This document shows, piece after piece, positions 19,513 to 34,913 of a stretch of DNA of 64,000 bases. Source of the stretch: Variovorax sp. PCZ-1 (GTDB lineage: Bacteria; Pseudomonadota; Gammaproteobacteria; Burkholderiales; Burkholderiaceae_C); NCBI RefSeq assembly GCF_018413605.1, contig NZ_JAHCDN010000001.1, positions 434,001 through 498,000 on the forward strand, written 5' to 3'. A program made the position numbers and the translations under genes. Numbering within the stretch: the stretch's first letter is position 1; the number at the start of each line of letters is the position of its first letter. The notes under the pieces were generated by a model. It was not told the DNA's origin. It saw only the letters and a program-made list of their open reading frames with translations, and searched no databases.

Positions 19513-20676
19513 ATGCAACGCCGTTCCACTTTCAAAATTGCTATCACTTCCATAGCTGCTTGCGCAGCATTGGTAAGCGCAAACACTGCTTTTTCTCAAA
19601 ATACCCTCAAGCTAGCTGCAATCGTGGAGCTCTCTGGTGGCGGCGCAACTGCGGGCACCAACTTTAAAAACGGCGTCGAGCTGGCTGTGAAAGAAATCAA
19701 TGCAGCTGGCGGCATCATGGGCAAGAAGCTGGAGCTGTCGATCAATGACACCACCACCAATCCCGGCGTGGCGCTCGCTTTAACAAAGAAAGCGATTGAC
19801 AACGATGTATTCGCCATATTTGGCCCTGTGTTTTCCGGCTCCATCATCGTGAGCATGAAAGAAAGCCAAAAAGCAGAAGTGCCCAACTGGACAGGCGGCG
19901 AAGCAGCGGGCATCACGATGCAAGGCAATCCCTACATCTTCCGTACCAGCTTCACGCAAGCCACGGCGATGCCAAAAATCGGCCGTTATATCAGCGATCA
20001 AGCCAAGGTGAAAAATCTCTCGATCATTTATGTGAACAACGACTTCGGCAAGGGTGGCTTGGACATGATCAAGAAAACACTGGCCGGTGGTTCCACCAAG
20101 ATCGTTGACGAAATTTCTACCGACGCTGGCCAAGTAGATTTTTCTGCCGCGGTGCTCAAAGCAAAAAATAGCGGCTCGGATGCTTTGTTTGCCTATGTGA
20201 ATGAAGACGAATCTGCCCGCCTCTTGCGCGAGCTGCGCAAACAAGGCTTTAACAAGCCTGTGATTGGTGAGACCACACTCACCGGCCAAAAAGTGATTGA
20301 GCTCGCAGGTGACGCCGCAACTGGTGCGATTGCACACGTTGGCCTCACGATTGATGCGCCCAGCCCTGAGATGTTGAAGTTCAAGGCCAAGTTTTACCAA
20401 GACTACAAATACCTGCCGGATCATAACGGTCCTAAAGGCTACATCGGCGTGTACACCATGAAAGCCGCGATTGAGAAAGCTGGCAAGTTGGATCGCAAGG
20501 CAGTGGCCGCTGCGATGAAGGGCTTGGAGCTGGATGTGAAGAAACATCCCGGCGTGTTGATGAGCGGCCGCTTTGATGACAAAGGCGATGTGGATCGCGA
20601 GAGCTATTTGGTGCAGGTCAAGAATGGCCGCCAAGAGGTTATTTCTGTGTTGCCTCCTTTGTCGGCCAAGAAGTGA
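19513..20676 (+). CDS. ABC transporter substrate-binding protein, LIV/HAAT type (first copy)
   Basis: A 387-residue periplasmic type-I binding protein with a signal peptide (about residues 1-27, ending near AFSQ). Family signatures include IKxAAIVELSG-like and GVELAVKEINAAGGI near the N-terminus and YVNNDFGKGG in the middle. This branch often binds aromatic or alicyclic acids rather than amino acids. It is about three quarters identical by eye to the gene at 21730, a clear duplication, with the IclR gene between them. An ATGTAC palindrome precedes it. No permease follows directly, so it likely shares the LivHMGF permease downstream. Confidence 0.87.
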   Translation: MQRRSTFKIAITSIAACAALVSANTAFSQNTLKLAAIVELSGGGATAGTNFKNGVELAVKEINAAGGIMGKKLELSINDTTTNPGVALALTKKAIDNDVFAIFGPVFSGSIIVSMKESQKAEVPNWTGGEAAGITMQGNPYIFRTSFTQATAMPKIGRYISDQAKVKNLSIIYVNNDFGKGGLDMIKKTLAGGSTKIVDEISTDAGQVDFSAAVLKAKNSGSDALFAYVNEDESARLLRELRKQGFNKPVIGETTLTGQKVIELAGDAATGAIAHVGLTIDAPSPEMLKFKAKFYQDYKYLPDHNGPKGYIGVYTMKAAIEKAGKLDRKAVAAAMKGLELDVKKHPGVLMSGRFDDKGDVDRESYLVQVKNGRQEVISVLPPLSAKK

Positions 20677-21729: not shown

Positions 21730-22956
21730 ATGTCATCTTCACTTCGCTTCCATTCCCTCGTCGGCGTCGCCTCGGTTGCTGCTGCTTTGGGATTTTCATT
21801 GCCAGTAAGCGCACAAAGCACGATCAAGTTGGCTGCCATCGTTGAGTTATCAGGTGCAGGTGCAACCGCAGGTACGAATTTCAAAAACGGCGTCGAAATG
21901 GCCGTGAAGGAAATCAATGCTGCGGGCGGCATTTTGGGCAGAAAGCTCGAGCTCAGCGTCAACGATACAACGACCAATCCCGGTGTTGCTCTGGCGATGA
22001 CGAAAAAAGCCATTGATCAAGATGTGTTTGCTATTTTTGGCCCCGTGTTTTCAGGCTCGATCATCGTCAGCATGAAGGAAAGCGAGAAAGCCAAGATCCC
22101 TAACTGGACGGGTGGTGAAGCAGCCAACATCACAATGCAAGGTAATCCCTACATTTTCCGCACCAGTTTCACACAAGCTACCGCGATGCCCAAAGTTGCT
22201 CGCTACATCAGCCAAGAGGTGAAAGTCAAAAGCCTGGCGATTGCTTATGTGAATAACGATTTTGGCAAAGGCGGTTTGGACATGATCAAGAAAGCCTTGG
22301 CCACAACCGATACAAAAATCACGGCTGAGATTTCTACCGATGCTGGGCAAGCGGATTTCTCTGCGGCAGTGCTCAGAGCCAAACAAAGCAATGCAGATGC
22401 GCTGTTTGTTTATCTGAATGAGGATGAATCAGCGCGAATCTTGCGTGAATTGCGCAAACAAGGCTGGAACAAGCCCATCATTGGTGAGACGACGCTCACC
22501 GGGCAGAAGGTCATTGATTTGGCGGGCGAGGCCGCCAACGGTGCCGTTGCGCACGTTGGTCTCACGGTAGATGCCCCCGTACCAGCGATCAGGGCGTTCA
22601 AAGCGAAATTTGAAAAAGAGTACAAATACGTTTCTGATCACAACGGCATGAAAGGTTATTCTGGCGTTTACAGTATGCAAGCGGCCATTGAGCGTGCGGG
22701 GAAGATAGATCGTGAAGCCGTCGCCAAAGCCATGCAAGGCCTGAAGATCAACACAGACAAATATCCTGGGGCATTGATGTACACCGAATTTGATGACAAA
22801 GGTGATTTAGATCGCATGAGTTTCTTGGTTCAGGTAAAAAATGGAAAGCAAGAGGTGATCAATCTCCTGCCTCCTTTGAATACGAAGACGGTAGTTACTT
22901 CGCCTGTGCCAACTGCTCTGAGTAACCAAGCAGCAGCTAAAAAAGTAAAGCCATAA
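21730..22956 (+). CDS. ABC transporter substrate-binding protein, LIV/HAAT type (second copy)
   Basis: A 408-residue periplasmic binding protein with a signal peptide of about 26 residues (ending near VSAQ). Its sequence closely follows the protein at 19513 (shared GATAGTNFKNGVE, DTTTNPGVALA, IFGPVFSGSIIVSMKES), with a roughly 20-residue Ala/Pro/Lys-rich C-terminal extension absent from the first copy. TAGGAG lies upstream of the ATG. It starts the apparent operon with livHMGF and is divergent from the PcaR-type regulator, so it is the likely main receptor for an aromatic or alicyclic acid such as quinate, shikimate or protocatechuate. Confidence 0.88.
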   Translation: MSSSLRFHSLVGVASVAAALGFSLPVSAQSTIKLAAIVELSGAGATAGTNFKNGVEMAVKEINAAGGILGRKLELSVNDTTTNPGVALAMTKKAIDQDVFAIFGPVFSGSIIVSMKESEKAKIPNWTGGEAANITMQGNPYIFRTSFTQATAMPKVARYISQEVKVKSLAIAYVNNDFGKGGLDMIKKALATTDTKITAEISTDAGQADFSAAVLRAKQSNADALFVYLNEDESARILRELRKQGWNKPIIGETTLTGQKVIDLAGEAANGAVAHVGLTVDAPVPAIRAFKAKFEKEYKYVSDHNGMKGYSGVYSMQAAIERAGKIDREAVAKAMQGLKINTDKYPGALMYTEFDDKGDLDRMSFLVQVKNGKQEVINLLPPLNTKTVVTSPVPTALSNQAAAKKVKP

Positions 22957-23036: not shown

Positions 23037-23912
23037 GTGATTGATTTCCTACAACTGGTCTTCAGCGGCATGGCCACAGGCTGTATTTATGCGCTGGTGG
23101 CGCTTGGTTTCACACTGCTTTGGCAAGCCGCGGGCACGATCAATTTTGCGCAGGGCGAATTCGTCATGCTGCCTGGATTTGGCATGCTGGCCTTCATGGC
23201 TTGGGGTGCGCCTCTGCCGATTGCGTTTTTGCTTACGGTCATAGTTGCCACTGTGGTGCTCGGATGGGCTTTCAAGCGCACGGTGGTAGATCCGCTCTTC
23301 AAGCACGGCATGATGCAGATCGTGGTGGCTACGATTGGTCTGTCTATCGTGATGAAAAACAGCATGCGCGCTGGCTACAGTGCGGAGGCGCATCCGTTCC
23401 CCAGCATCTTCGGCGATACCTTGTTTCAAATCGCAGGTGTGACTGTTTCGCTGGGCGATGTGGGCACCCTGATGGCTGCGCTGATCATCGTGTTTGCCAC
23501 TCAGGCTTTCCTGTCGGGAACGATCACTGGCCGTGCGATGCAGGCGGTGGCGCAAAACACGGAAAGCGCAGCGGTGCTGGGCATCAATGTGCCACGCATG
23601 ATTTTTTATACTTTTGCAATCAATGCGGCGCTGGCTTGCGCGGCGGCGATCTTGGTCACACCCACGTATCTCGCCAAGTTCGATATGGGTGATTTCCTCG
23701 GCACGAAAGCCTTCTTCGCAGCTATCATCGGCGGCTTTAACAATTCCCGTGGCGCCTTACTCGGTGGTTTGATTGTTGGCGTGAGTGAAAATCTCGCCGC
23801 TGCTTATATCTCGCCCGCCTACAAAGATGCCGTGGCACTGGTGGTGTTCATGGCCGTGATTTTGTTCAGACCTCAAGGCTTGCTGGGCCGGAAAGAGGAG
23901 CGTAAGGTATGA
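23037..23912 (+). CDS. livH: Branched-chain-type ABC permease LivH
   Basis: A 291-residue inner-membrane permease of the LivH family with about eight transmembrane segments. GLxxGCIYALVALGFTLLWQA-like and TINFAQGEFVMLPGFG motifs near the N-terminus and the EAA-type loop GRAMQAVAQNTESAAVLGI are visible. A GTG start follows GGGAGGTGATC, a strong ribosome-binding site. It pairs with LivM, whose start overlaps its stop by four bases. Together with LivG and LivF it imports the ligand carried by the nearby binding proteins. Confidence 0.9.
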   Translation: MIDFLQLVFSGMATGCIYALVALGFTLLWQAAGTINFAQGEFVMLPGFGMLAFMAWGAPLPIAFLLTVIVATVVLGWAFKRTVVDPLFKHGMMQIVVATIGLSIVMKNSMRAGYSAEAHPFPSIFGDTLFQIAGVTVSLGDVGTLMAALIIVFATQAFLSGTITGRAMQAVAQNTESAAVLGINVPRMIFYTFAINAALACAAAILVTPTYLAKFDMGDFLGTKAFFAAIIGGFNNSRGALLGGLIVGVSENLAAAYISPAYKDAVALVVFMAVILFRPQGLLGRKEERKV

Positions 23913-24916
23913 ACAATAATCAGAAGTTCGCCGGCGTATTCATTGCGCTAGTAGCTATTATTTTGATAGCTGTTCCACCGTTCTTGAAAAATTATGGTGT
24001 GTATCTCTTCAGCCTCTGGCTCGTCTTCGTGGTCGCAACCATGGGCTTGAATCTCACGGTGGGCTATGCGGGGCAAAAGTCTCTCGGGCATGCCGCTTTC
24101 TTCGGCATCGGCGCGTATGGCGTGGCTATTGCTATGAAAGCGGGGCTCTCATGGTGGCTTGGCTTGCCGATAGCCATGCTGGCCTGCTTCATCATGGGAA
24201 TCATCGTGGGCTTTCCGGCGCTGCGGGTGCAAACGATCTATTTGGCCTTTGCTACGCTGGGTTTTAACACGGCGATGTGGCTCGTCTTCCGCAATGAAGA
24301 ATGGCTCACGGGTGGTACGTTTGGCTTTAACGGTATTGCGAGGCCAACTGTTTTTGGCATCTCACTTAAAGGGCATTTGGCGTATTACTACTTTGTGCTC
24401 TCTGTTTCAGCAATAGCTATTGCATTGCTGTGGGGTTTGCTGCGTTCGCCTTGGGGCAAAGCTTTTCAAGCCTTGCGTGATAACCCAATTCGCGCGGAGA
24501 GCTTAGGTATTGACACACGAGCCTACACGCTGCTGAGCTTTGCGATTGGCGCTGCGTATGCAGGGTTGGCGGGCGCTCTGTATGCGTCGCTCACAGATTA
24601 CATTGATCCAGCCTCCTTCACAGTCGGCGCATCGATCACCATGTATTTGATGGTAGTCGTAGGCGGCGCAGGCGCATTCCTAGGGCCGCTCGTGGGCGCA
24701 CTGGTGGGCTTGATCTTGCCGGAGTGGATTCGTGATGTCGCGCCTGCCTTGGCCAATTGGTATCTGCCTGTGTTTGGCGTGATGGTGATTGCGATGTTGG
24801 TGTGGCTGCCCGATGGCCTGATGAGCTTGCCAGAGAAGCTATTTTCTAAGCGAAATGTGCTTCAAGCCGGCGTACCTTCTGCGCAGAATGCTATCAAAAT
24901 GGGAGAAAAAAAATGA
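23909..24916 (+). CDS. livM: Branched-chain-type ABC permease LivM
   Basis: A 335-residue permease with the LivM signatures GLNLTVGYAGQKSLGHAAFF and the EAA loop KAFQALRDNPIRAESLGID. ATGA overlaps exist on both sides with livH and livG. Residues about 310-330 (around LQAGVPSAQNAIKM) are encoded by a family A repeat in minus orientation and form the cytoplasmic tail, where an insertion is tolerable. Near the N-terminus, AGCTAT-N7-ATAGCT (23953-23971) encodes part of the first membrane segment and resembles one end of the same repeat. Confidence 0.9.
   Translation: MNNNQKFAGVFIALVAIILIAVPPFLKNYGVYLFSLWLVFVVATMGLNLTVGYAGQKSLGHAAFFGIGAYGVAIAMKAGLSWWLGLPIAMLACFIMGIIVGFPALRVQTIYLAFATLGFNTAMWLVFRNEEWLTGGTFGFNGIARPTVFGISLKGHLAYYYFVLSVSAIAIALLWGLLRSPWGKAFQALRDNPIRAESLGIDTRAYTLLSFAIGAAYAGLAGALYASLTDYIDPASFTVGASITMYLMVVVGGAGAFLGPLVGALVGLILPEWIRDVAPALANWYLPVFGVMVIAMLVWLPDGLMSLPEKLFSKRNVLQAGVPSAQNAIKMGEKK
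23953..23971. repeat. Partial family A-like dyad in livM
   Basis: AGCTAT-TATTTTG-ATAGCT forms a short palindrome resembling the GATAGC end of family A but lacks the GCGCAG and GCCGGC cores. It may be a remnant or chance. Confidence 0.3.
24838..24900 (-). repeat. Family A repeat, copy 15, inside livM
   Basis: TCAAGCCGGCGTACCTTCTG, then CGCAGAATGCTATCAAAATG. It is read through in frame as QAGVPSAQNAIKM near the LivM C-terminus, the antisense-frame form of the repeat peptide. Confidence 0.75.
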
Positions 24917-25671
24917 GCTCTCCTGTTTTAAAAGTTTCCGATATGAAGAAAGCCTACGGCGCAATCCAAGCCGTGGGTGGGGTGAGTTTTGAAGTGATGC
25001 CAGGTGAGATTTTCGGCGTGATCGGGCCCAATGGCTCAGGTAAGACGACGCTGTTCAACTCCATGCTCGGTCAGATCAAGCCTGATTCTGGCAGCATCGA
25101 ATTCAAAGGCCAAGATGTCACGAAAGCGGGGCCGCTGGAGCTCTCGCGCCTCGGCGTGGGGCGCACGTTTCAAACACTGCAGGTGTTTGGCAAGATGAGT
25201 GTGCGCGATAACTTGATCGTTGCCGCGCAAGAGCATCAAGGCAGCAAACTCAGCCGCATGTTTGCGCCTTCTGATTCAGGGCTGGGCGATAAAGCCGATG
25301 CACTGATTGATCAGTTTCGCATTCGTCATGTGGCGGATTTGAAGGCGGGCACACTGAGCTATGGTCAGCAAAAACTGGTAGATATCGCCATGGCCTTCAT
25401 GCGCGAGCCGGATTTGGTCTTGCTTGATGAGCCTTGCGCAGGGGTGAATCCATCTCTGGTGGGTGGCATTTCTTCTTTGCTCAAACAGCTGAATGAAACA
25501 GGCTGGGGCGGCAAGAAGAGCAGCTTCGTGGTGATTGAACACAATATGGATTTCGTGATGAGTCTGTGTCACCGTATCATGGTGATGGTAGAAGGCAAGG
25601 TGCTCGCTATCGGCACACCTGCTGAAATTCGCGGTAACAAAGCCGTGCTTGATGCTTATCTGGGAGCATGA
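24913..25671 (+). CDS. livG: Branched-chain-type ABC transporter ATPase LivG
   Basis: A 252-residue ABC ATPase with Walker A GPNGSGKTT, signature LSYGQQKLVDIAMAF, Walker B DLVLLDEPCAG and the LivG-type switch VVIEHNMDFVM. It energises the LivHM permease from the cytoplasmic side together with LivF. Its start overlaps the livM stop (ATGA) and the livF gene follows with a short overlap or a two-base gap, so the operon is translationally coupled. Confidence 0.93.
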   Translation: MSSPVLKVSDMKKAYGAIQAVGGVSFEVMPGEIFGVIGPNGSGKTTLFNSMLGQIKPDSGSIEFKGQDVTKAGPLELSRLGVGRTFQTLQVFGKMSVRDNLIVAAQEHQGSKLSRMFAPSDSGLGDKADALIDQFRIRHVADLKAGTLSYGQQKLVDIAMAFMREPDLVLLDEPCAGVNPSLVGGISSLLKQLNETGWGGKKSSFVVIEHNMDFVMSLCHRIMVMVEGKVLAIGTPAEIRGNKAVLDAYLGA

Positions 25672-25673
25672 TC

Positions 25674-26405
25674 ATGAGCCAAGATATTGCTATTCAATTC
25701 GACAAAGTGCTCGCAGGCTACAAGGATTTGATGATCTTGAATCATCTGGATTTGAAGATTCGCCGTGCAGCCATCACTTTGCTCATTGGCCCCAATGGTG
25801 CGGGGAAATCCACCGTGCTTAAAACGCTTTTTGGCCTGCTCAAACCGCGCGAGGGCCGTGTGCTCTTTGAAGGTGAGGACATTTCTGGCGCAACACAGAA
25901 AGATCTGCTCGGCAAAGGCCTGGCCTTCGTGCCACAAGGGCGCAACCTGTTTCCGCAGCTCTCGGTGTATCAAAACCTAGAGCTTGGCGGCATCACGCTG
26001 GGCACCAAGCTCACCCATGAGCGTATCCCAGAAGTCTTGAAGCACTTCCCGCGTGTACAAGAGCGTATCCATTCGCAGGCGAGTGCATTGAGCGGTGGCG
26101 AGCAAAAGCAATTAGAAATCGCTCGTGCTTTGTTGCTGCGCCCGAAAGTGTTGCTGATTGATGAGCCATCGATTGGCCTTTCGCCCATTGTTGTTCAAGA
26201 TGTATTCAAACTCTTGCGCCAGTTGGCAGAGCAGGGCACAACGATTGTGATGGTTGAGCAAAACGTGAAAAGTGCTTTGAAGATTTCAGATGAGGCGATA
26301 GCGCTGGAGTCTGGCCGATGTGTGCTGCATCGCAAGGCTTCGGAGTTGTTGGCTGATCCAGATATTGAGAGGTTGTTTCTGGGCGGGCACGTAGCTTCCG
26401 TATAG
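25674..26405 (+). CDS. livF: Branched-chain-type ABC transporter ATPase LivF
   Basis: A 243-residue ABC ATPase with Walker A GPNGAGKST, signature LSGGEQKQLEIARALL, Walker B VLLIDEPSIGL and VEQNVKSAL at the switch, all LivF-like. The ATG at 25674 is spaced properly from GGGAG; the ATG at 25668 lies too close to it. It ends the livHMGF operon, and a family B hairpin begins 22 bases later, a likely transcript end or processing point before the dehydratase genes. Confidence 0.93.
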   Translation: MSQDIAIQFDKVLAGYKDLMILNHLDLKIRRAAITLLIGPNGAGKSTVLKTLFGLLKPREGRVLFEGEDISGATQKDLLGKGLAFVPQGRNLFPQLSVYQNLELGGITLGTKLTHERIPEVLKHFPRVQERIHSQASALSGGEQKQLEIARALLLRPKVLLIDEPSIGLSPIVVQDVFKLLRQLAEQGTTIVMVEQNVKSALKISDEAIALESGRCVLHRKASELLADPDIERLFLGGHVASV

Positions 26406-26426
26406 ATAGTTGCAGATCAAAAAATA

Positions 26427-26525
26427 GAACGCAAAAGCGGCAAAAAAACGCAAAAGGTGCAAAAGCATGAATAGGCATTTTTCTTTTTCTGCGTCTGTTG
26501 CGTTCCTTTTGCGCTTTTTGCGTTC
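26427..26525. repeat. Family B long-hairpin repeat, copy 2
   Basis: The left arm GAACGCAAAAGCGGCAAAAA pairs with the right arm ending CTTTTTGCGTTC; the flanking bases AATA and TATT extend the pairing. It separates livF from the VOC gene. Confidence 0.8.
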
Positions 26526-26567
26526 TATTATTCGAGCGATGTAAGAGATGAATACCCGGAGAAAATC

Positions 26568-27488
26568 ATGAGCGACCTGTTGATGAAAGCGCCAGAGCGT
26601 GTAGATGGGCGCGAGCCTTTGCAGCATTCGTTTTCGGATGCGGCCAACCCGATTGGTTTGGATGGGATTGAGTTCATTGAATACGCCACTTCCAAGCCGC
26701 AAGCGCTTGGGCAAGTGTTGGAGATGATGGGTTTCAAGCCTGTGGCTCGGCATCGTTCGCGCGAGGTGTTGCTGTATCGGCAAGGTGGCTTGAACATCGT
26801 CGTGAACGCGCATCCTGATGAAGTACGCGGCGCAACACATGGGCGGGAAACGCCAGCGATTGCCGCAATTGCGCTTCGTGTGCGCGATGCGCGAGCGGCT
26901 TATGCCTATGCGCGCGAGCGTGGCGCGTGGGAAGTGCCTACACATGCGCAGGTGATGGAGCTGAATATCCCGGCGATTCATGGCGCGGGAGGAAGCCGGA
27001 TTTATTTTGTGGATCGGTATCGTGAATTCAGTATCTACAGCGTGGATTTCGTGCCGATTCCAGACGTGGATCAAGCGCCGCCCGCCACCGCCGGCCTGCA
27101 TTTCTTTGGCGTGGTGCAATACATCGGCGCGGAACGCAGCAATGATTGGATTGCGTTTTACAAAGAGCTGTTTGGCTTTGATCTGATCCCCGATGAAGAG
27201 CGCTTTGGCATCATGCCCAAGGGCACGCTGATGAAGAGCCCAGCGCTCTCCGCGGGAGCAGGCTTCATGCTGCAGATGGTGGAGCCAGATGTGAATGTGC
27301 TCGATGGCGAAGAGCGTTTGCAGCGCATCGGTCTTGGTGTGCCAGATGTGTTGCTGGCAGTGAATGCTCTGCGCAAATTGGGCATTGAGTTTGTCGAAAC
27401 CAAGGCGGCGCACACTGAGCAACGCGGCGCGATCACGAAGACGTATTTGGGCGGTGTGGTGTTTGAGCTGGTTCATAGCGCGGGGTGA
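26568..27488 (+). CDS. VOC-superfamily protein, HPPD-like, partner of the dehydroshikimate dehydratase
   Basis: A 306-residue protein of two VOC modules resembling 4-hydroxyphenylpyruvate dioxygenase. Of the expected metal ligands, H178 (GLHFFGVVQ) and E300 (VVFELVHS) are seen, but the second histidine position reads LQRIGLGVPD with R253, so dioxygenase chemistry is doubtful. In QuiC/QsuB enzymes an HPPD-like domain of this kind is fused behind a 3-dehydroshikimate dehydratase TIM barrel. Here it is a separate gene placed before the TIM-barrel gene with a 4-base gap, so the two products probably work together. Confidence 0.72.
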   Translation: MSDLLMKAPERVDGREPLQHSFSDAANPIGLDGIEFIEYATSKPQALGQVLEMMGFKPVARHRSREVLLYRQGGLNIVVNAHPDEVRGATHGRETPAIAAIALRVRDARAAYAYARERGAWEVPTHAQVMELNIPAIHGAGGSRIYFVDRYREFSIYSVDFVPIPDVDQAPPATAGLHFFGVVQYIGAERSNDWIAFYKELFGFDLIPDEERFGIMPKGTLMKSPALSAGAGFMLQMVEPDVNVLDGEERLQRIGLGVPDVLLAVNALRKLGIEFVETKAAHTEQRGAITKTYLGGVVFELVHSAG

Positions 27489-27492
27489 GATC

Positions 27493-28389
27493 ATGAAACT
27501 CATTCGCGAATTCGGTATGGATACGATCAGCTTGGCTGGGCCGATTGAGGCCAAACTTGCTGCGATGAAAGCGGCGGGCTTTGATCAGGTGATGCTCAAG
27601 GCCAATGATTTGGTAGGGCATCCGGGTGGTTTGCAAGCAGCTGTGGCTGCCTGCAATGCGAGCGGCTTGCGTGCCACAGGCTTTCAAGTGCTGCGCGATT
27701 TTGAAGGCTTGTCAGGCCATTTGCACGAATACAAGATCGACATCGCCAAAAGCATGCTGCAAATGGCGCATAGCTTGGGTGCGAAGGTCTTGCTCGCCTG
27801 CTCATCCGTCTCAGCGCATGCCACGCAGGATCTCGACAAGATTGCAGCCGATTTGCGCAAGCTAGCTATGCTCGCCGTGCCCTATGGCATCAAGATCGCC
27901 TATGAAGCTCTGAGCTGGGGGCGCACGGTCAATGAGCTGCCGCAGAGCTGGGATGTGGTCTGCAGAGCTGATGCGCCTAACCTAGGCATTTGCGTGGATT
28001 CTTATCACGTGCTCGCTGCGAAGACTTCGCCCGAAGAGATTGATTACCTCGATGCTTCCAAAATCTTCCTCGTACAGCTCGCCGATTTCATGTGGGAAGA
28101 GACGAAGAGCTTTGAAGAGCGCATGACCACAGCGCGCACATTCCGTGTTTTTCCAGGCGAAGGCGTGCATAGCGATGCTTTGGTGGATATTGTGCTGCGG
28201 CTCGAGAGGATAGGCTACCGTGGTGACTACAGCTTCGAAGTGTTCAATGACGATTATGTGAACTTGCCGCTAGAGCTCGTCTGCGAGCGCGCAAAGAAAA
28301 GCGCACAGTGGTTGGCTGAGGATGTATTGCGACGCTCCACACCACTGCCAGGCAGCATGCGATTGAAGATTGCAAAGCTACTTATTTGA
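27493..28389 (+). CDS. 3-dehydroshikimate dehydratase, TIM-barrel (QuiC/QsuB catalytic-domain type)
   Basis: A 298-residue sugar-phosphate-isomerase/epimerase-type TIM barrel. The metal tetrad is visible as E138 (KIAYEALSWGR), D169 (CVDSYHV), Q195 (FLVQLADF) and E249 (YSFEVFND), matching in order and spacing the Glu-Asp-Gln-Glu site of QuiC-type dehydratases. These convert 3-dehydroshikimate to protocatechuate. The start is ATG 27493, four bases after the VOC gene stop; an open frame running further upstream overlaps that gene. The last two codons and the TGA stop lie in a family A repeat. An isomerase of another sugar acid is the main alternative, but the neighbours argue for this role. Confidence 0.75.
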   Translation: MKLIREFGMDTISLAGPIEAKLAAMKAAGFDQVMLKANDLVGHPGGLQAAVAACNASGLRATGFQVLRDFEGLSGHLHEYKIDIAKSMLQMAHSLGAKVLLACSSVSAHATQDLDKIAADLRKLAMLAVPYGIKIAYEALSWGRTVNELPQSWDVVCRADAPNLGICVDSYHVLAAKTSPEEIDYLDASKIFLVQLADFMWEETKSFEERMTTARTFRVFPGEGVHSDALVDIVLRLERIGYRGDYSFEVFNDDYVNLPLELVCERAKKSAQWLAEDVLRRSTPLPGSMRLKIAKLLI

Positions 28390-28430
28390 TAGCACTTAGC
28401 GCAGTATCTATGCCGGCGATAGGCTTAAAA
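28383..28430 (+). repeat. Family A repeat, copy 4
   Basis: TATTTGATAGCACTTAGCGC, then AGTATCTATGCCGGCGATAG. Its TTTGATAG end supplies the stop codon (TGA, 28387-28389) of the dehydratase gene. Confidence 0.85.
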
Positions 28431-28449
28431 TGCTTCGAAAGAGAGAACT

Positions 28450-29364
28450 ATGACAATACCGCAACATGCCATCGCTGGTCTCTGGCCAGCGCTTTTGACC
28501 CCAATCCATACTGACGGAAGTATCGATATACCGCGCATGATTGCGCATGGGCAACACTTGCTCAGCAGCGGGAGTGACGGTTTAACGCTGTTTGGCACAA
28601 CAGGCGAAGGCACATCGTTCACTGTGCAGCAGCGCATGGCTGCTGCCGATGCGTTTGTCGCTGCGGGAGTGATGGGCGATCAGCTTGTTATCAATCTCAC
28701 AGCGCTCGCGCGCGATGATGCGGTTGCTTTGGGTGTGCACGCTGTGAAGATCAAAGCCAAAGCAGGTCTCTTGATGCCGCCCTTCTATTACAACGGCCAG
28801 CATGACGCAGGCTTGGTGAATTACATCGGCGAAGTTATCGACGAGGTATGTGCCCATGCAGGTCATTGCTTGCCTATCATTCTTTATCACTTCCCTGGTC
28901 TTTCGGGTGTAGGTTGGAGTGTGAGCGCGATTGCGCAACTCATGCAAAAGCACCCTCAGCAAGTGGTGAGCATCAAAGACAGCAGCGCTGATGTGGCGCA
29001 TTCCAAAATGCTGGCGCAAACATTTCCGAAACTTGCTGTGCTCGTCGGCTGTGAGCCCGATGTGATGCCTACTCAGCTTGTGGGTGGCGCTGGCTCAATT
29101 TGTGGTTTAGCGAATATCGCACCCAAGCTGATGCGCCGCATGATGGATGAGCCCGCGCATGTGAGTGCAGCAGATGACAAACTGATGCGAGATTTATTGG
29201 GCTTGCTTTCTTTGCAGCCTGGAATGCCATTTGTGAGCGCTTACAAAGCGATGCTCGCAGAACTGACGGGTGACGATGCATGGCTTCGTGTTCGTACGCC
29301 GCTCACTGCATTGAGCGCACAGCAGGAAAATGCTGTGCGCCAAGGCTATCGCAAGCTGCACTAA
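28450..29364 (+). CDS. Dihydrodipicolinate synthase/N-acetylneuraminate lyase family protein
   Basis: A 304-residue class I aldolase-fold protein. The family signature TTGEG (50-54), Y146 (ILYHFP) and the Schiff-base lysine K176 (VVSIKDSS) are present. Such enzymes join or cleave 2-oxo acids, or dehydrate sugar acids. Unlike true DapA, it sits in a catabolic and transport island, so it more likely acts on a substrate imported by the adjacent TRAP transporter. The reaction cannot be assigned from sequence. A family A repeat lies between the dehydratase gene and this one. Confidence 0.82.
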   Translation: MTIPQHAIAGLWPALLTPIHTDGSIDIPRMIAHGQHLLSSGSDGLTLFGTTGEGTSFTVQQRMAAADAFVAAGVMGDQLVINLTALARDDAVALGVHAVKIKAKAGLLMPPFYYNGQHDAGLVNYIGEVIDEVCAHAGHCLPIILYHFPGLSGVGWSVSAIAQLMQKHPQQVVSIKDSSADVAHSKMLAQTFPKLAVLVGCEPDVMPTQLVGGAGSICGLANIAPKLMRRMMDEPAHVSAADDKLMRDLLGLLSLQPGMPFVSAYKAMLAELTGDDAWLRVRTPLTALSAQQENAVRQGYRKLH

Positions 29365-29454: not shown

Positions 29455-29985
29455 ATGCTGAATAAACTCATCAATACATATTGCAAGCTGCTCGAATATG
29501 CGATGGCGCTGTTTCTTGCACTCATGGTGCTCATGGTGTTTGGCAATGTCGTGTTGCGCTATGGGTTCAACTCAGGTATCACCATCAGCGAAGAGCTCTC
29601 ACGTTGGCTCTTTGTTTGGGTGACGTTCATGGGCGCTGTCGTTGCGCTCAAAGAAAAAGGCCATTTGGGTACCGATATGCTGATCGCTCGGCTGGGTGTG
29701 CAAGGCAAGAAGTTGTGTTTGGGCCTGAGTTTGTTGCTGATGCTCGCTTTGTGCGGCGTACTATTCAAAGGTGCATGGGAGCAAACCAAGATCAATGCGA
29801 GCTCAAGCAGCGCCGCAATGGAAATCTCCATGGGCATCTTCTTCTCGGTGGGCTTGATGTTTGCCGTGCTCGGTGGCTTGATCATTGCGCGGGATTTTTA
29901 TAGTTTGGTCACAGGCCAAATGAGTGAGGCTGATTTGATGGCCGTACGTGAATCCGAAGATGTGCCGCATGGCGATCATAAATAA
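29455..29985 (+). CDS. dctQ: TRAP transporter small permease (DctQ)
   Basis: A 176-residue membrane protein with four hydrophobic segments and the DctQ signature ISEELSRWLFVWVTFMGAVVALKEKGHLG. It links the periplasmic binding protein and the large permease of a sodium-driven TRAP importer. AGGAG precedes the ATG. The large permease follows after 12 bases and the binding protein lies downstream, a complete QMP set. A palindromic operator overlaps the leader. Confidence 0.9.
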   Translation: MLNKLINTYCKLLEYAMALFLALMVLMVFGNVVLRYGFNSGITISEELSRWLFVWVTFMGAVVALKEKGHLGTDMLIARLGVQGKKLCLGLSLLLMLALCGVLFKGAWEQTKINASSSSAAMEISMGIFFSVGLMFAVLGGLIIARDFYSLVTGQMSEADLMAVRESEDVPHGDHK

Positions 29986-29997
29986 GCGAGTCGCAAA

Positions 29998-31278
29998 ATG
30001 ACGATTGCACTTTTCCTCCTCGCTTTGCTCGGCGCCATGGCGCTAGGTATGCCCATTGCTTTCTCGCTCTTACTCACTGGCGCTGCCCTGATGTGGCAAC
30101 TGGGTATGTGGGATTCGCAAATCCTTGCGCAAAACGTGATTGAGGGGGCGAACAGCTTTCCACTGCTCGCTGTGCCTTTCTTTATGCTTGCTGGTGAGAT
30201 CATGAACGCGGGTGGCTTGTCTCGCCGCATTGTGAATTTTGCTCTCGCGCTTGTAGGCCATATCCCTGGTGGCTTAGGTTATGTGGCCATCGTGGCGGCC
30301 TGCATCATGGCTGCGCTCTCGGGTTCAGCGGTGGCCGATGCTGCCGCGCTTTCAGCTTTGCTATTACCTATGATGGTTCGCGCGGGTCACGATCCTGCGC
30401 GCTCTGCGGGCTTGATTGCTTCTGCCAGCATCATAGCGCCGATTATTCCGCCTTCAATTGCTTTCATCATTTTTGGTGTGGCTGCAAATATTTCGATTTC
30501 CAAGTTGTTCCTCGCAGGCATCGTTCCCGGTATCTTGCTGGGCGTATCGCTGTGGATTACGTGGTGGATTCTGGTGCGCAAAGAAAAAGTCACACCCTCG
30601 CCGCGCGCCACGCGTGCCGAGGTGGCCAAGGCTTTCCGCGAAACTTTGCTCGCGCTAGGTTTGCCCTTGATCGTGGTAGGTGGCTTGAAATTCGGCGTGT
30701 TCACGCCGACAGAGTCGGCCGTGGTGGCTGCGGTGTATGCGCTGTTGATTTCGATTTTTGTGTATGGCGAAATCAAGATCAAACAGTTGCTGCCGATTTT
30801 TATTCAAGCCGCGAAAACCAGCGCAGTGGTGATGTTTCTGGTGGCCGCAGCCATGGTTTCGGCTTGGATGATCACCGTCGCGCAATTGCCCGCCCAGCTT
30901 ACTGCTTTGCTGCAGCCCTTGCTCGATAGCCCGCGCCTGCTCATGTTCTGCATCATGGTGATCGTGATCATTGTCGGTACGGCAATGGACATGACGCCGA
31001 CGATTTTGATTCTCACGCCCGTTCTGATGCCGCTCATCAAGGCTGCTGGGATTGACCCGGTGTATTTTGGCGTGATGTTCATCATCAACAACGCGATCGG
31101 CCTGATCACGCCACCAGTTGGCACGGTGCTCAACACCGTCGCAGGTGTGGGAAAAATCAGTATGGATAAGGTCACTCGCGGCGTACTGCCTTTCATGATT
31201 GCGCAATTCATCTTGTTGTTCTTGATGGTGCTGTTTCCGCAAATCGTGATCTGGCCAGCAAAATTTTTGGCTGGCTAA
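29998..31278 (+). CDS. dctM: TRAP transporter large permease (DctM)
   Basis: A 426-residue, roughly 12-segment membrane protein of the DctM family. Signatures include MAALSGSAVADAAALSALLL, ASASIIAPIIPPSIAFIIFG and AMDMTPTILILTPVLMPL, the last being part of the transport core. It moves the substrate together with sodium. Typical length. It is co-transcribed with dctQ, and the binding-protein gene follows 118 bases later. Confidence 0.93.
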   Translation: MTIALFLLALLGAMALGMPIAFSLLLTGAALMWQLGMWDSQILAQNVIEGANSFPLLAVPFFMLAGEIMNAGGLSRRIVNFALALVGHIPGGLGYVAIVAACIMAALSGSAVADAAALSALLLPMMVRAGHDPARSAGLIASASIIAPIIPPSIAFIIFGVAANISISKLFLAGIVPGILLGVSLWITWWILVRKEKVTPSPRATRAEVAKAFRETLLALGLPLIVVGGLKFGVFTPTESAVVAAVYALLISIFVYGEIKIKQLLPIFIQAAKTSAVVMFLVAAAMVSAWMITVAQLPAQLTALLQPLLDSPRLLMFCIMVIVIIVGTAMDMTPTILILTPVLMPLIKAAGIDPVYFGVMFIINNAIGLITPPVGTVLNTVAGVGKISMDKVTRGVLPFMIAQFILLFLMVLFPQIVIWPAKFLAG

Positions 31279-31396
31279 GTATTTGTCCTGATATCTGGAT
31301 ACTGATTAAGTCGCTTTAGTCCTAACAAAGCATATGAAGACACGCCATATGCCCAGTTTTTCCAATCGCGTGTTGTGTCATTTCTTGGAGACTCTT

Positions 31397-32404
31397 ATGA
31401 AACGTCTGTTTGTTAAAAGCGTGATCGCTGCCGTCGCTCTCGTAGCTGCTGGCGTGGCATCTGCTCAAAATTATTCTGAGCGCACGATCAAATTTGGCAC
31501 GCAAAATGCGGCTGGGCATTCCATAGTGCAAGGCATGGAGCGTTTCAAGTCCATCGTCGAAGCCAAATCTGGCGGCAAGATCAAGGTCAACGTATTCCCC
31601 GCAGCGCAATTGGGCAACGACCAATTCCATGTGAGCGGCGTGCAGGGTGGCACGATTGAAATGGCTGTGATGAATAGCGGTATCTTGGCCTCTCAAGTGC
31701 CAGCTTTCGCCATTTACGATTTCCCTTTCATGTTTGAGAGCGAAGCCGTGGCTGACAAAATTGTGGATGGCCCCTTCGGCAAGAAAATGCATACCCGCTT
31801 GGAAGAAAAAGGCATCGTCGGCATCGCTTACTGGGAGCTGGGCTTCCGCAACATGACCAACAGCAAAAAGCCGCTCAATAAAGTGGAAGACATCGCTGGC
31901 CTGAAACTGCGAGTGATCCCCAATGCCATCAATTTGGATTGGGTCAAAGCTTTGGATGCTAACCCAACACCGCTTCCTTTCCCTGAGCTCTACGGCGCTT
32001 TGGAGAACAAGGCGGTGGATGGCCAAGAGAACCCCATCCCCACTATTAAAGGCAACAAGTTTGCAGAAGTGCAAAAGCATTTGGCTTTGACGAAACACGT
32101 GTACAACCCACAATCTGTGATGGTGAGCAAGAAGCTTTGGGACTCCTTAAACGCAGATGAGAAAAAACTCTTCAACGATGCTGCTGCTGAGGCTGGTGTA
32201 TTCCAACGCAAAACCAACCGCGATGCATTGGCCAAGGATTTGGCTGATCTGAAAACTGCTGGCATGCTCGTGACAGAGTTCCCTCCTACCGAGACAGCCA
32301 AGTTTGTTGAAAAAATGAAGCCTGTGATTGCCAAGCATGCCGCTACTGTAGGCGCAGATGTGGTCAACGAATTCATTGCGGCTTCTGCTGCAGCGAAGCG
32401 CTGA
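31397..32404 (+). CDS. dctP: TRAP transporter substrate-binding protein (DctP)
   Basis: A 335-residue periplasmic binding protein with a signal peptide of about 23 residues (ending VASA). DctP-family features include SGGKIKVNVFPAAQLG, the conserved carboxylate-binding arginine in GLKLRVIPN, and a helical C-terminus. The arginine indicates an organic-acid ligand; the island suggests quinate, shikimate or a related hydroxy acid, which is inference. ATG 31397 follows TTGGAG at a good distance; the upstream in-frame ATG at 31334 lacks support. Confidence 0.9.
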   Translation: MKRLFVKSVIAAVALVAAGVASAQNYSERTIKFGTQNAAGHSIVQGMERFKSIVEAKSGGKIKVNVFPAAQLGNDQFHVSGVQGGTIEMAVMNSGILASQVPAFAIYDFPFMFESEAVADKIVDGPFGKKMHTRLEEKGIVGIAYWELGFRNMTNSKKPLNKVEDIAGLKLRVIPNAINLDWVKALDANPTPLPFPELYGALENKAVDGQENPIPTIKGNKFAEVQKHLALTKHVYNPQSVMVSKKLWDSLNADEKKLFNDAAAEAGVFQRKTNRDALAKDLADLKTAGMLVTEFPPTETAKFVEKMKPVIAKHAATVGADVVNEFIAASAAAKR

Positions 32405-32515: not shown

Positions 32516-33559
32516 ATGAATCGAAGCAAAATTGCTGTTGCCGGCGCAGGCTATATCGGCCAAGTGCATATGGCTGCGTTGCTTTCGAGCCGCACGCTTT
32601 GCTTGAGCGCCGTGGTTGATCCGACAGAAGCTGGCGCGCAGGCTGCAGCTAAGGCAGGCGTGCCTTACTACAGTTCGATTGAAGAGCTGCTTGCGCAAGA
32701 TCGCCCAGATGGCATCGTGCTCGCTACGCCTAATCAATTTCATGTGCCGCATGCGATGCAATGCTTGGAAGCCAAGCTTCCGATGCTGCTGGAAAAGCCG
32801 ATTGCACCGACGGTGAAAGAGGGCTTGAGCCTCTTGCAAGCCTGCGAAAAAATGCAAGGCCAGATACTGATGGGTCATCATCGCGCCCACAGCCCGATCA
32901 TGGCCAAGGCGTGTGAAGTGGTGCAAAGCGGACAGCTAGGGCGTATCGTTGCTCTGCAAGGCAGTGCAACATTTTTCAAGCCAGATCATTATTTTGCAGA
33001 GAGCCCATGGCGGCGCGAGCTGGGCGGCGGCCCGATTTTGCTCAACATGATTCATGAGGTGCACAATTTGCGCATGCTCTGCGGCGAAATTTCCGCTGTT
33101 CAAGCTTTTAAAAGCCATGCAGTTCGCCGATTTGCGGTGGAAGATACCGTGGCAATCACTCTGCAGTTTGAGAGCGGCGCTCTCGGCACATTCATGCTGA
33201 GTGACACTGCAGCCAGCGCGAAGAGCTGGGAACAAACCTCTCAGGAAAACAAAGCCTACCCGAGCTATAGCGATGAAGATTGCTACACCGTGAGCGGCAC
33301 GCGGGGCACACTTTCTGTGCCTACGATGCGCATGAAGACTTATGCAAGCGATGAAGGCTGTTCTTGGTGGAAGCCATTTGAGATTGGCCAAGCAAGTGTG
33401 CAACGCGATGATCCGATCAAACTGCAAATGGAGCATTTCGGCGCAGTTGTGCGCGGGCAAGCCCAGCCGCTGGTAAGTGCTCATGATGGTTTACAGAATC
33501 TTCGCGTGACAGAAGCTATCTCTCTAGCGGCACAATCAGGCACCACCATCACACTTTAG
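32516..33559 (+). CDS. Gfo/Idh/MocA-family NAD(P)-dependent oxidoreductase
   Basis: A 347-residue two-domain oxidoreductase. The Rossmann motif VAGAGYIGQVH starts the protein, K94 lies in the family motif EKPI, and ILLNMIHEVHNLRML occupies the catalytic His region of the second domain. Members oxidise hydroxyls of sugars, inositols and sugar acids. In this setting it is a candidate for oxidising quinate, shikimate or a related alicyclic hydroxy acid to the 3-keto form, but this is inference. It ends 9 bases before aroQ and is probably co-transcribed with it. Confidence 0.85.
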   Translation: MNRSKIAVAGAGYIGQVHMAALLSSRTLCLSAVVDPTEAGAQAAAKAGVPYYSSIEELLAQDRPDGIVLATPNQFHVPHAMQCLEAKLPMLLEKPIAPTVKEGLSLLQACEKMQGQILMGHHRAHSPIMAKACEVVQSGQLGRIVALQGSATFFKPDHYFAESPWRRELGGGPILLNMIHEVHNLRMLCGEISAVQAFKSHAVRRFAVEDTVAITLQFESGALGTFMLSDTAASAKSWEQTSQENKAYPSYSDEDCYTVSGTRGTLSVPTMRMKTYASDEGCSWWKPFEIGQASVQRDDPIKLQMEHFGAVVRGQAQPLVSAHDGLQNLRVTEAISLAAQSGTTITL

Positions 33560-33568
33560 GGAAACATC

Positions 33569-34006
33569 ATGAAAATTCTCGTTCTCAATGGCATCAATCT
33601 CAATATGTTTGGCAAGCGCGATGCAGCCACCTATGGCACAGCCACGCTGGATGACATCAACGCAGCTTGTGTCGCTCTAGGCAAAGAGCTCGGCCACGAG
33701 GTGAGCTGTTTTCAGACCAATATTGAAGGAGAAATGGCTCAGCGCATTCATACCGCGCATGGCGATGGCACGGCTGCTGTGGTGATCAACGCTGGCGCAT
33801 GGACGCACTACAGCATTGGCCTACGCGATGCGTTGGCAATTCTCAAGTGCCCCATCATTGAAGTACATATGAGCAATATCCACGCGCGCGAAGAGTTCCG
33901 CCACCATTCTGTGATCGCTGCGATTGCCAAAGGACAGATTGCCGGCTTTGGCGTAGAGAGCTACTTGCTGGGGATCCGTGCAGCAGTATCTGCAGCGAAG
34001 GCTTAA
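33569..34006 (+). CDS. aroQ: Type II 3-dehydroquinate dehydratase
   Basis: A 145-residue type II dehydroquinase that interconverts 3-dehydroquinate and 3-dehydroshikimate. Catalytic residues are conserved: R17 and Y22 (GKRDAATYG), N74 (INAGAW), H80, H100 (EVHMSN) and R111 (EFRHHS). The substrate-site segment is INAGAWTHYSIGLRDAL rather than the common INPGAYTHTSVALRDAL, suggesting a specialised, probably catabolic, paralogue. GGAAAC-type spacing from the Gfo/Idh gene and the dehydratase upstream support a quinate-to-protocatechuate route. Confidence 0.9.
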   Translation: MKILVLNGINLNMFGKRDAATYGTATLDDINAACVALGKELGHEVSCFQTNIEGEMAQRIHTAHGDGTAAVVINAGAWTHYSIGLRDALAILKCPIIEVHMSNIHAREEFRHHSVIAAIAKGQIAGFGVESYLLGIRAAVSAAKA

Positions 34007-34082: not shown

Positions 34083-34913
34083 ATGCGTATCGACGGCAAT
34101 ATCGAAATCATCGCCCACATTGGCTGGCCGACCTACAGCTTCAAAGCGCCGCTCATTTACAACCCGTATTTTGAGCAAGCGGGGATCAACGCCATGGTCA
34201 CGCCAATGGGATGTAAACCAGAGCACTTCCCTGAGTTTCTGCGCAATGTGTTCCATCTGGAAAATGTGCGTGGTGCATTGATCACCATGCCTCACAAAGT
34301 CAGCGTGATGGATTTGCTGGACGTTATTTCACCCGCGGCACGTGTAGCTGGTGCATGCAATGCAGTCAAGCGCGGTTCAGACGGCAAGCTCTATGGCGAT
34401 ATGTTTGATGGCGAAGGTTTTGTGCGCGGCGTGCAGCGCAAAGACTTTGTTGTAGAGGGCAAGCGTGCACTCATTGTGGGAGCAGGCGGCGTAGGCAGTG
34501 CGATTGTGGCGTCGCTGGCCCACGCAGGTTTGAAAGCGATGACTTTGTATGACGTTGACGCTACGAGCTGTGATGCACTTGCTGATCGTATTCGCGCGAA
34601 TTTTCCTCATGTGAGGGTTTGTGTTGGCAGCAATGATCCTGCTGGATTTGATCTGGTGGTCAATGCCACACCGCTGGGTATGAAGAAGGGCGATCCCTTG
34701 CCACTGGATGTGAGCCGCTTAGATGCCAACACCTTTGTCGGCGAGGTGGTGATGGCGCAAGAAATCACGGCCTTCTTAGCTGCAGCGCGCGCGCGCGGTT
34801 GTCGAACGCAAGTCGGCACAGACATGCTCTATGAGCAAATTCCCGCGTATCTTGAGTTTTTTGGTTTACCAAGCACCACGGCGGAGCATCTGCGCGAAGT
34901 GTCTCTGGCTTGA
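34083..34913 (+). CDS. Shikimate/quinate dehydrogenase-family protein, divergent AroE-like
   Basis: A 276-residue AroE-fold oxidoreductase. The catalytic pair K72 (ITMPHK) and D109 (MFDGEG), N93 (CNAV) and the nucleotide loop GAGGVGSA (133-140) are kept. The carboxylate-binding motif that reads SxS in AroE is S19-F-K21 here, so substrate preference probably differs from shikimate. Its position after aroQ and near the split dehydratase resembles, as I recall it, the Pseudomonas PA0242-PA0245 region, where an AroE-like gene lies beside aroQ2 and quiC. It may be the quinate-oxidising enzyme of the island. Confidence 0.78.
   Translation: MRIDGNIEIIAHIGWPTYSFKAPLIYNPYFEQAGINAMVTPMGCKPEHFPEFLRNVFHLENVRGALITMPHKVSVMDLLDVISPAARVAGACNAVKRGSDGKLYGDMFDGEGFVRGVQRKDFVVEGKRALIVGAGGVGSAIVASLAHAGLKAMTLYDVDATSCDALADRIRANFPHVRVCVGSNDPAGFDLVVNATPLGMKKGDPLPLDVSRLDANTFVGEVVMAQEITAFLAAARARGCRTQVGTDMLYEQIPAYLEFFGLPSTTAEHLREVSLA

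Follow-up and report, generated by a model that had tools for sequence, protein, structure and literature searches.

A two-gene relative of QuiC-type 3-dehydroshikimate dehydratases in Burkholderiales, with a VOC partner that lacks the metal histidines

The closest described relatives of the gene pair reported here are QuiC1 from P. putida (PDB 5HMQ) and QsuB from Corynebacterium glutamicum, which, like the pair, combine a metal-dependent TIM barrel with an HPPD-like double-VOC part. The available portions of two reports either call the function of this HPPD-like domain in bacterial dehydroshikimate dehydratases unknown or propose that it is structural (PMC7442255; PMC9324987). As far as the available text of the first of these goes, removal of the C-terminal domain leaves QsuB active, though mostly as a monomer where the full protein is an octamer, and activity on protocatechuate was not detected (PMC7442255). 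Other dehydroshikimate dehydratases, AsbF and the fungal-type enzymes, are free-standing TIM barrels, as is the barrel here (classes according to the available part of PMC9324987). IolI and the sugar-phosphate isomerase/epimerase barrels (PF01261) share the fold and the general metal site with our TIM protein, but their similarity to it is much lower. We know of no VOC partner for these latter barrels. The two-gene form itself was not found in the titles or abstract openings of the partial literature collection that was searched.

Here we analyse a stretch of 64,000 nucleotides from Variovorax sp. PCZ-1 (hereafter, the window) in which the two parts are encoded separately. While QuiC1 and QsuB are one chain with the TIM barrel first, the window has two genes with the VOC gene first. 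The initial annotation had described the VOC half as a gene of its own, placed four bases before the TIM-barrel gene, and both open reading frames are indeed found in this arrangement on the plus strand (Table 1). It had also described QuiC/QsuB-type enzymes as TIM followed by VOC in a single chain, which agrees with all 36 fused relatives that we scored. Two further differences from QuiC1 and QsuB concern the proteins themselves: the window VOC has neither metal histidine and ends soon past the Glu, and the window TIM carries a loop that is specific to the split form, its active-site residues being otherwise the same except for S206. The fused QuiC model NF042435 is matched by the two halves in reversed order, the VOC covering model positions 291-488 and the TIM positions 5-250, and its cut-off of 1200 bits is reached by neither (TIM, 174.1 bits; VOC, 88.1 bits). 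A search of the genome found no fused QuiC elsewhere, and a promoter and terminator scan of positions 26300-28700 returned 0 sites of either kind. The possibility that the VOC gene is the HPPD gene of this genome was rejected, as a separate true HPPD gene is present at C1:130644.

Table 1. Features of the locus (positions in the window).
Feature	Position	Strand	Basis
VOC gene, 306 aa; HPPD-like two-VOC protein (Glyoxalase_5 + Glyoxalase), metal histidines absent	26568..27488	+	Pfam matches, alignment, AlphaFold2 model
Intergenic spacer between VOC and TIM genes, 4 bases	27489..27492	+	
TIM-barrel gene, 298 aa; putative half of a QuiC-type 3-dehydroshikimate dehydratase (E138, D169, Q195, E249)	27493..28389	+	Profile and PDB matches, AlphaFold2 model
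TIM codons 69-81, split-specific loop with EGLxGxLH; putative docking surface, suggested post hoc	27697..27735	+	
livHMGF ABC-transporter genes, upstream of the VOC-TIM pair	23037..26405	+	
TRAP transporter genes dctQ, dctM (named from sequence) and dctP (HMM)	29455..32404	+	
aroQ, type II 3-dehydroquinate dehydratase	33569..34006	+	Profile matches
aroE-like shikimate/quinate dehydrogenase	34083..34913	+	Profile matches

The VOC protein matches Glyoxalase_5 (PF14696, the HPPD N-terminal part) with 154.9 bits, above the gathering score of 27, and also matches Glyoxalase; against TIGR01263 (HPPD) it scores 91 bits, below the cut-off of 277 bits. Its AlphaFold2 model (pLDDT 90.0) finds HPPD and then 5hmq as the best PDB folds, and 5hmq is its third-best PDB sequence match. 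Although it has the fold and the N-terminal VOC sequence in common with HPPD, it is shorter, adjoins a TIM barrel gene and lacks the 2-His-1-Glu iron site, as the HPPD ligand positions are occupied by Gly181, Arg253 and Glu300, with the protein ending 6 residues past this Glu. The Gly/Arg/Glu triad is present in 128 of 130 split VOCs, the exceptions being the divergent L232 (QAA) and the Azoarcus L006 (HDE; L numbers denote loci and G numbers genomes). The triad is His/His/Glu in 13/13 HPPDs, in QuiC1 itself according to the alignment, and in 30/36 fused VOCs, while the remaining six read HQE (4), HQA (1) and GAE (1). Because the HPPD metal histidines have been lost, we predict that the split VOC does not act as a dioxygenase. 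Probably it is a partner that does not itself catalyse a reaction, a pseudo-enzyme in which an Arg-Glu pair may stand in for the metal. The initial annotation had recognized the HPPD-like nature of this half and had missed the absence of its metal histidines. Among fused enzymes, Gln takes the place of the second VOC metal His in L064, L085, L201, L202 and L204, and two genomes with such a Gln-type fused QuiC (G044 and G131) also have a split pair.

The TIM protein matches PF01261 (xylose isomerase-like TIM barrel) with 102.8 bits, above the gathering score of 31.1. Among PDB sequences, it matches 5hmq best (QuiC1, P. putida; 3.6e-43), and the same entry is the best PDB fold for its AlphaFold2 model (pLDDT 91.9), with 1i60 next after the 5hmq chains. 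The retention of E138, D169, Q195 and E249, which the initial annotation had listed, is borne out by their alignment with the QuiC1 metal-ligand residues E134, D165, Q191 and E239. The available part of the QuiC1 literature gives R64, L97, E134, L136, D165, H168, Q191, S206, R210 and E239 as the active-site residues (PMC7442255). The equivalent residues of the window TIM are R68, L101, E138, L140, D169, H172, Q195, A214, R218 and E249, that is, 9/10 are kept and S206 is replaced by Ala214; this Ala occurs in 127/131 split TIMs, and S206 is present in 31/36 fused TIMs. All four metal ligands are retained in 126/131 split TIMs, and of the five exceptions one (L006) has the single change E249D and the other four have two ligands changed. 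However, these four residues cannot be taken as a sign of dehydratase activity, because the same ligands E, D, Q and E are found in 10/11 more distant AP_endonuc_2 barrels used as an outgroup. In the same 11 barrels R210 occurs in 11, H168 in 10 and R64 in 8 (QuiC1 numbering), and the four ligands are accompanied by R64, H168 and R210 together in 7/11. Since the active-site residues are largely common to these distant barrels, the assignment of a substrate rests on gene neighbours and phylogeny.

The pair is frequent in Burkholderiales, and many bacteria of soil and fresh water appear to carry it. Among 150 genomes of the window's family, for which the VOC and TIM searches were treated as one sample since the genome handles agree, closely related VOCs (E up to 1e-60) were found in 47/150 and TIMs at the same level likewise in 47/150, 46 genomes being shared. 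All 47 VOC genomes also carry a TIM, the one in G022 being strongly diverged (1.1e-48), and no VOC without TIM was found among them. In the reverse direction, a related TIM (E up to 1e-60) is present in G020, where the search for a split VOC turned up only a true HPPD; the VOC is therefore not required by every member. This QuiC-related solo TIM (L082, 9607-10503) has aroE and aroQ as neighbours. In G148, the TIM is a piece of 55 residues only.

In total, 185 TIM rows were scored, comprising 142 split TIMs with a VOC upstream, 36 fused TIM-VOC proteins and 7 rows in which no VOC was found, two of which (L080 and L115) end at a contig border; neither a TIM-first pair nor a VOC-TIM fusion occurs among the 185. 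Without duplicates, the set consists of 36 fused TIMs, 7 others and 131 split TIMs, the window among them. The split count includes L233, which lacks a VOC itself and received its label only through the VOC belonging to a fused neighbour, so that there are 130 true pairs. Because the VOC gene lies upstream on the same strand in 130/131 distinct split TIMs, the arrangement is not due to chance, and the idea of a sequencing or annotation accident was rejected on the same count. The constant VOC neighbour also distinguishes these barrels from the AsbF/fungal class; moreover, trees built from members other than AsbF and the fungal enzymes place the barrel with the two-domain class. The distance from stop to start is -4 to +30 bp in 115/130 pairs.

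Hosts among the best 80 of 550 relatives in a genome scan, each of at least 71% identity and hence speaking for near relatives rather than for the outer limits of the family, include Hydrogenophaga, Limnohabitans, Variovorax, Rhodoferax, Polaromonas, Ramlibacter, Leptothrix, Sphaerotilus and Aquabacterium. Further copies of the pair are located on plasmids of Vitreoscilla filiformis, Massilia putida and Azoarcus sp. KH32C. In the three plasmid records examined, the pair is annotated as 4-hydroxyphenylpyruvate dioxygenase and sugar phosphate isomerase/epimerase, names that are probably misleading. In a draw of 398 genomes across the phylum, all six matches stronger than 1e-100 fell within the order of the window. 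Of the remaining matches, four lie in frames of 276-318 aa (L235-L238) that have no VOC beside them, and all others lie in frames of roughly 600 aa or longer; those of the long ones that were fetched and scored are fused. Two of these solo barrels, L237 and L238 (G555 and G790, of the window's class), are 33-35% identical to the L082 TIM. The split pair is an old lineage, conserved and widely distributed, and not a local accident.

The genes around the pair support an assignment to quinate/shikimate catabolism. Downstream of the window pair are the TRAP transporter, aroQ and the aroE-like gene, and upstream are an IclR regulator, which comes closest to the PcaR/PcaU/PobR subfamily (242.9 bits, below the cut-off of 284.75), and the Liv-type ABC operon. 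Two similar Liv-type substrate-binding proteins (19513-20676 and 21730-22956) are encoded on either side of this regulator, upstream of livHMGF. A DapA-like aldolase (28450-29364) and a Gfo/Idh/MocA oxidoreductase (32516-33559) are situated among the quinate/shikimate genes; their counterparts occur in 2/102 (DapA) and 11/102 (Gfo) of the long loci, defined as those with a fetched stretch of >14 kb (n=102). In this set, aroE or aroQ is present in 81/102 loci, neither was found in 21/102, and a TRAP or Liv transporter is present in 74/102. The window genome also encodes a class III extradiol dioxygenase beta subunit (NF009903, 526.7 bits), which scores 501.5 bits against the protocatechuate 4,5-dioxygenase model, below the fused model's cut-off of 837. 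This neighbourhood would fit a route from quinate or shikimate to protocatechuate and, together with the matches to the fused model, is in line with the initial annotation of the two genes as halves of a QuiC/QsuB-type dehydratase.

We could speculate that the TIM acts instead on a related substrate, such as another cyclitol or a sugar acid, and that the fused enzyme is the true dehydroshikimate dehydratase wherever both occur. The pair could act on another substrate because five family genomes (G022, G044, G052, G066 and G131) and the Massilia putida plasmid carry a fused QuiC in addition to the split pair; the generic active site of the barrel, its S206A change and the Liv-type ABC genes near 23/102 long loci point in the same direction. 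This scenario is difficult to reconcile with an aroE-like gene placed within the pair itself, in the approximately 840 bp that separate VOC from TIM in L220, L221, L223 and L229, four loci from other families of Burkholderiales; in L220 its ends overlap both genes. It also fits poorly with the presence of aroE or aroQ near most long loci, with a window genome in which no fused QuiC was found and yet aroQ, aroE and a TRAP transporter adjoin the pair, and with split TIMs that lie next to fused QuiC TIMs in the trees. We therefore regard another substrate as quite improbable.

The initial annotation had proposed that the two genes are either the unfused ancestral form or the product of a fission, and that a phylogeny of each half against the fused enzymes would bear on this. 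We aligned 43 split rows (window included) with 24/36 fused and 13 HPPD rows, and trees were built on chosen rows: 84 for a quick TIM tree, 45 of those 84, long rows excluded, for the TIM AU test, and 38 for the VOC AU test. With HPPD as the outgroup, the 38-row VOC tree contains a fused VOC clade (100/100) and a split VOC clade (95/89), and the grouping of split VOCs with Burkholderiales fused VOCs is rejected (AU p 1.6e-5). In the 45-row TIM tree, a clade (95/100) unites the fused rows with two solo barrels, and no single clade is resolved for the split rows, while in the 84-row quick tree all 44 split TIMs group (81) and have the solo L082 as their sister; in both, the split TIMs adjoin the fused QuiC TIMs. 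The VOC half is thus distinct from its fused counterparts, and the TIM half is apart from them in the best trees, although its grouping with Burkholderiales fused TIMs has an AU p of 0.119 and the fission tree is not rejected for this half.

That TIM result is what speaks for a fission in which a fused QuiC was split and its VOC half then moved in front. The VOC test and clades oppose it, as do HPPD-like residues such as R104 and E249, which are kept in split VOCs and missing from most fused VOCs, and no intermediate, either a VOC-TIM fusion or a TIM-first pair, occurs in the 185 rows. Because the VOC tree rejects a grouping with Burkholderiales fused VOCs, fission from a sampled fused gene seems unlikely, and from the Burkholderiales fused genes it is already rejected for this half; an earlier fission, before the fused clade diversified, or an unfused ancestor would hinge on the root of the three-way VOC tree, which is uncertain. 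Overall, we consider fission a very improbable origin for the pair.

Two or more ligands are altered in 4/131 split TIMs: E138V and E249Q in L231, E138K and E249S in L081, E138R and E249W in L084 (G022), and E138Q and D169G, plus R218G, in L072. These four come from genomes G022, G052, G299 and G017. A fifth broken TIM, identified by reading its sequence and not among the 131, is that of G864, in the genus of G022, from which both Glu are absent. The genus searches around the broken-TIM genomes covered 1, 6 and 2 genomes (centre included), and only G864 added a pair. All five are open frames beside a VOC of the usual type, and they represent perhaps two or three independent events, as judged from a quick tree built without G864. 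The initial annotation had missed that some TIM partners are predicted pseudo-enzymes. A fused QuiC gene is also present in G022, G052 and G864 and was not found in G017 and G299; in G022 and G052 it may have relieved the TIM of its function. In the one genus concerned, the fused QuiC gene is directly followed by the split VOC and the broken TIM (L084, 6931-10727, in G022; L307 in G864), and the G864 fused gene has a frame that appears broken in its VOC part.

Across the 130 pairs, the TIM is 10 points more conserved than the VOC (median), and the four broken pairs rank 1, 2, 3 and 5 the other way. Similarly, pN/pS, a crude estimate at high divergence, is 0.40 for the VOC and 0.68 for the TIM between G022 and G864, whereas the TIM is below the VOC in 5/5 comparisons of intact pairs. 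Because conservation of the VOC persists in five genomes whose TIM is without some of its catalytic residues, these sequences suggest a role of the VOC beyond catalysis. The three most changed TIMs retain 49 of the 116 sites that are conserved in intact split TIMs, including 8/10 sites at positions 69-81 as compared with 41/106 elsewhere (Fisher p 0.017, post hoc). The motif EGLxGxLH in this loop is present in 119/124 intact split TIMs, 5/5 broken TIMs and 0/36 fused TIMs, and is missing from L006, L232, L233 and the solo L082. This post hoc pattern hints that the loop might be a VOC-docking surface. A VLRRS-like tail at the TIM C-terminus follows a strict pattern in 63/124 intact split TIMs, looser ones in 96/124 and 107/124, against 0/36 fused TIMs; as the pattern was chosen after the data were seen, the tail is a faint candidate for a signature of the pair.

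It is tempting to speculate that the pair has a task other than, or in addition to, dehydration, and that the VOC is its functional centre, a ligand-binding sensor or regulator of the pathway, with the TIM as a scaffold that is catalytic in most lineages and a dispensable enzyme in some. Such a sensor would account for the open frames of TIMs with changed ligands, for the conservation ranks and pN/pS values of the broken pairs, for the retention of the split-specific loop in all broken TIMs and for the lack of any VOC-only genome among the 47. On the other hand, nearly all TIMs keep their four ligands, the broken cases and their independent origins are few, and the TIM could simply be decaying with the VOC lagging behind, three of the five genomes having a fused QuiC as well. 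We consider this scenario rather unlikely. More tentatively than our preferred reading below, we entertain that the VOC is a metal-free pseudo-dioxygenase from the HPPD lineage that serves as a constant partner of the TIM, whether as scaffold, sensor or allosteric subunit, and that its role is separable from catalysis and can outlive it, leaving a non-enzymatic heteromer with a dead TIM in several lineages.

Starting from what is directly observed, namely the gene order, its conservation, the loss of the VOC metal residues, the pathway neighbours and a VOC lineage apart from the fused one, we think it fairly probable that the pair forms a 3-dehydroshikimate dehydratase of two subunits that serves quinate/shikimate catabolism, its VOC partner being a pseudo-enzyme. 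In this enzyme, the TIM subunit would hold a divalent metal and dehydrate 3-dehydroshikimate to protocatechuate. The VOC subunit would be a pseudo-dioxygenase that has kept the two-VOC fold, with Gly and Arg in place of the metal histidines, and would assemble, stabilise or tune the TIM subunit, as proposed for the C-terminal domain in fused QsuB. Docking of the two subunits could occur via the EGLxGxLH loop.

The two-gene form is a real variant of a known enzyme class, the bacterial dehydroshikimate dehydratases. Being a natural two-gene form, it allows each part to be expressed, mixed or deleted singly. Because the metal residues of the split VOC have been lost, dioxygenase activity would not be needed for the role of the partner here. 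Moreover, the genomes with a broken TIM may separate the role of the VOC from the dehydratase step. Finally, a pseudo-enzyme partner, together with the cases of a dead TIM, makes the question of what the HPPD-like domain does a testable one.
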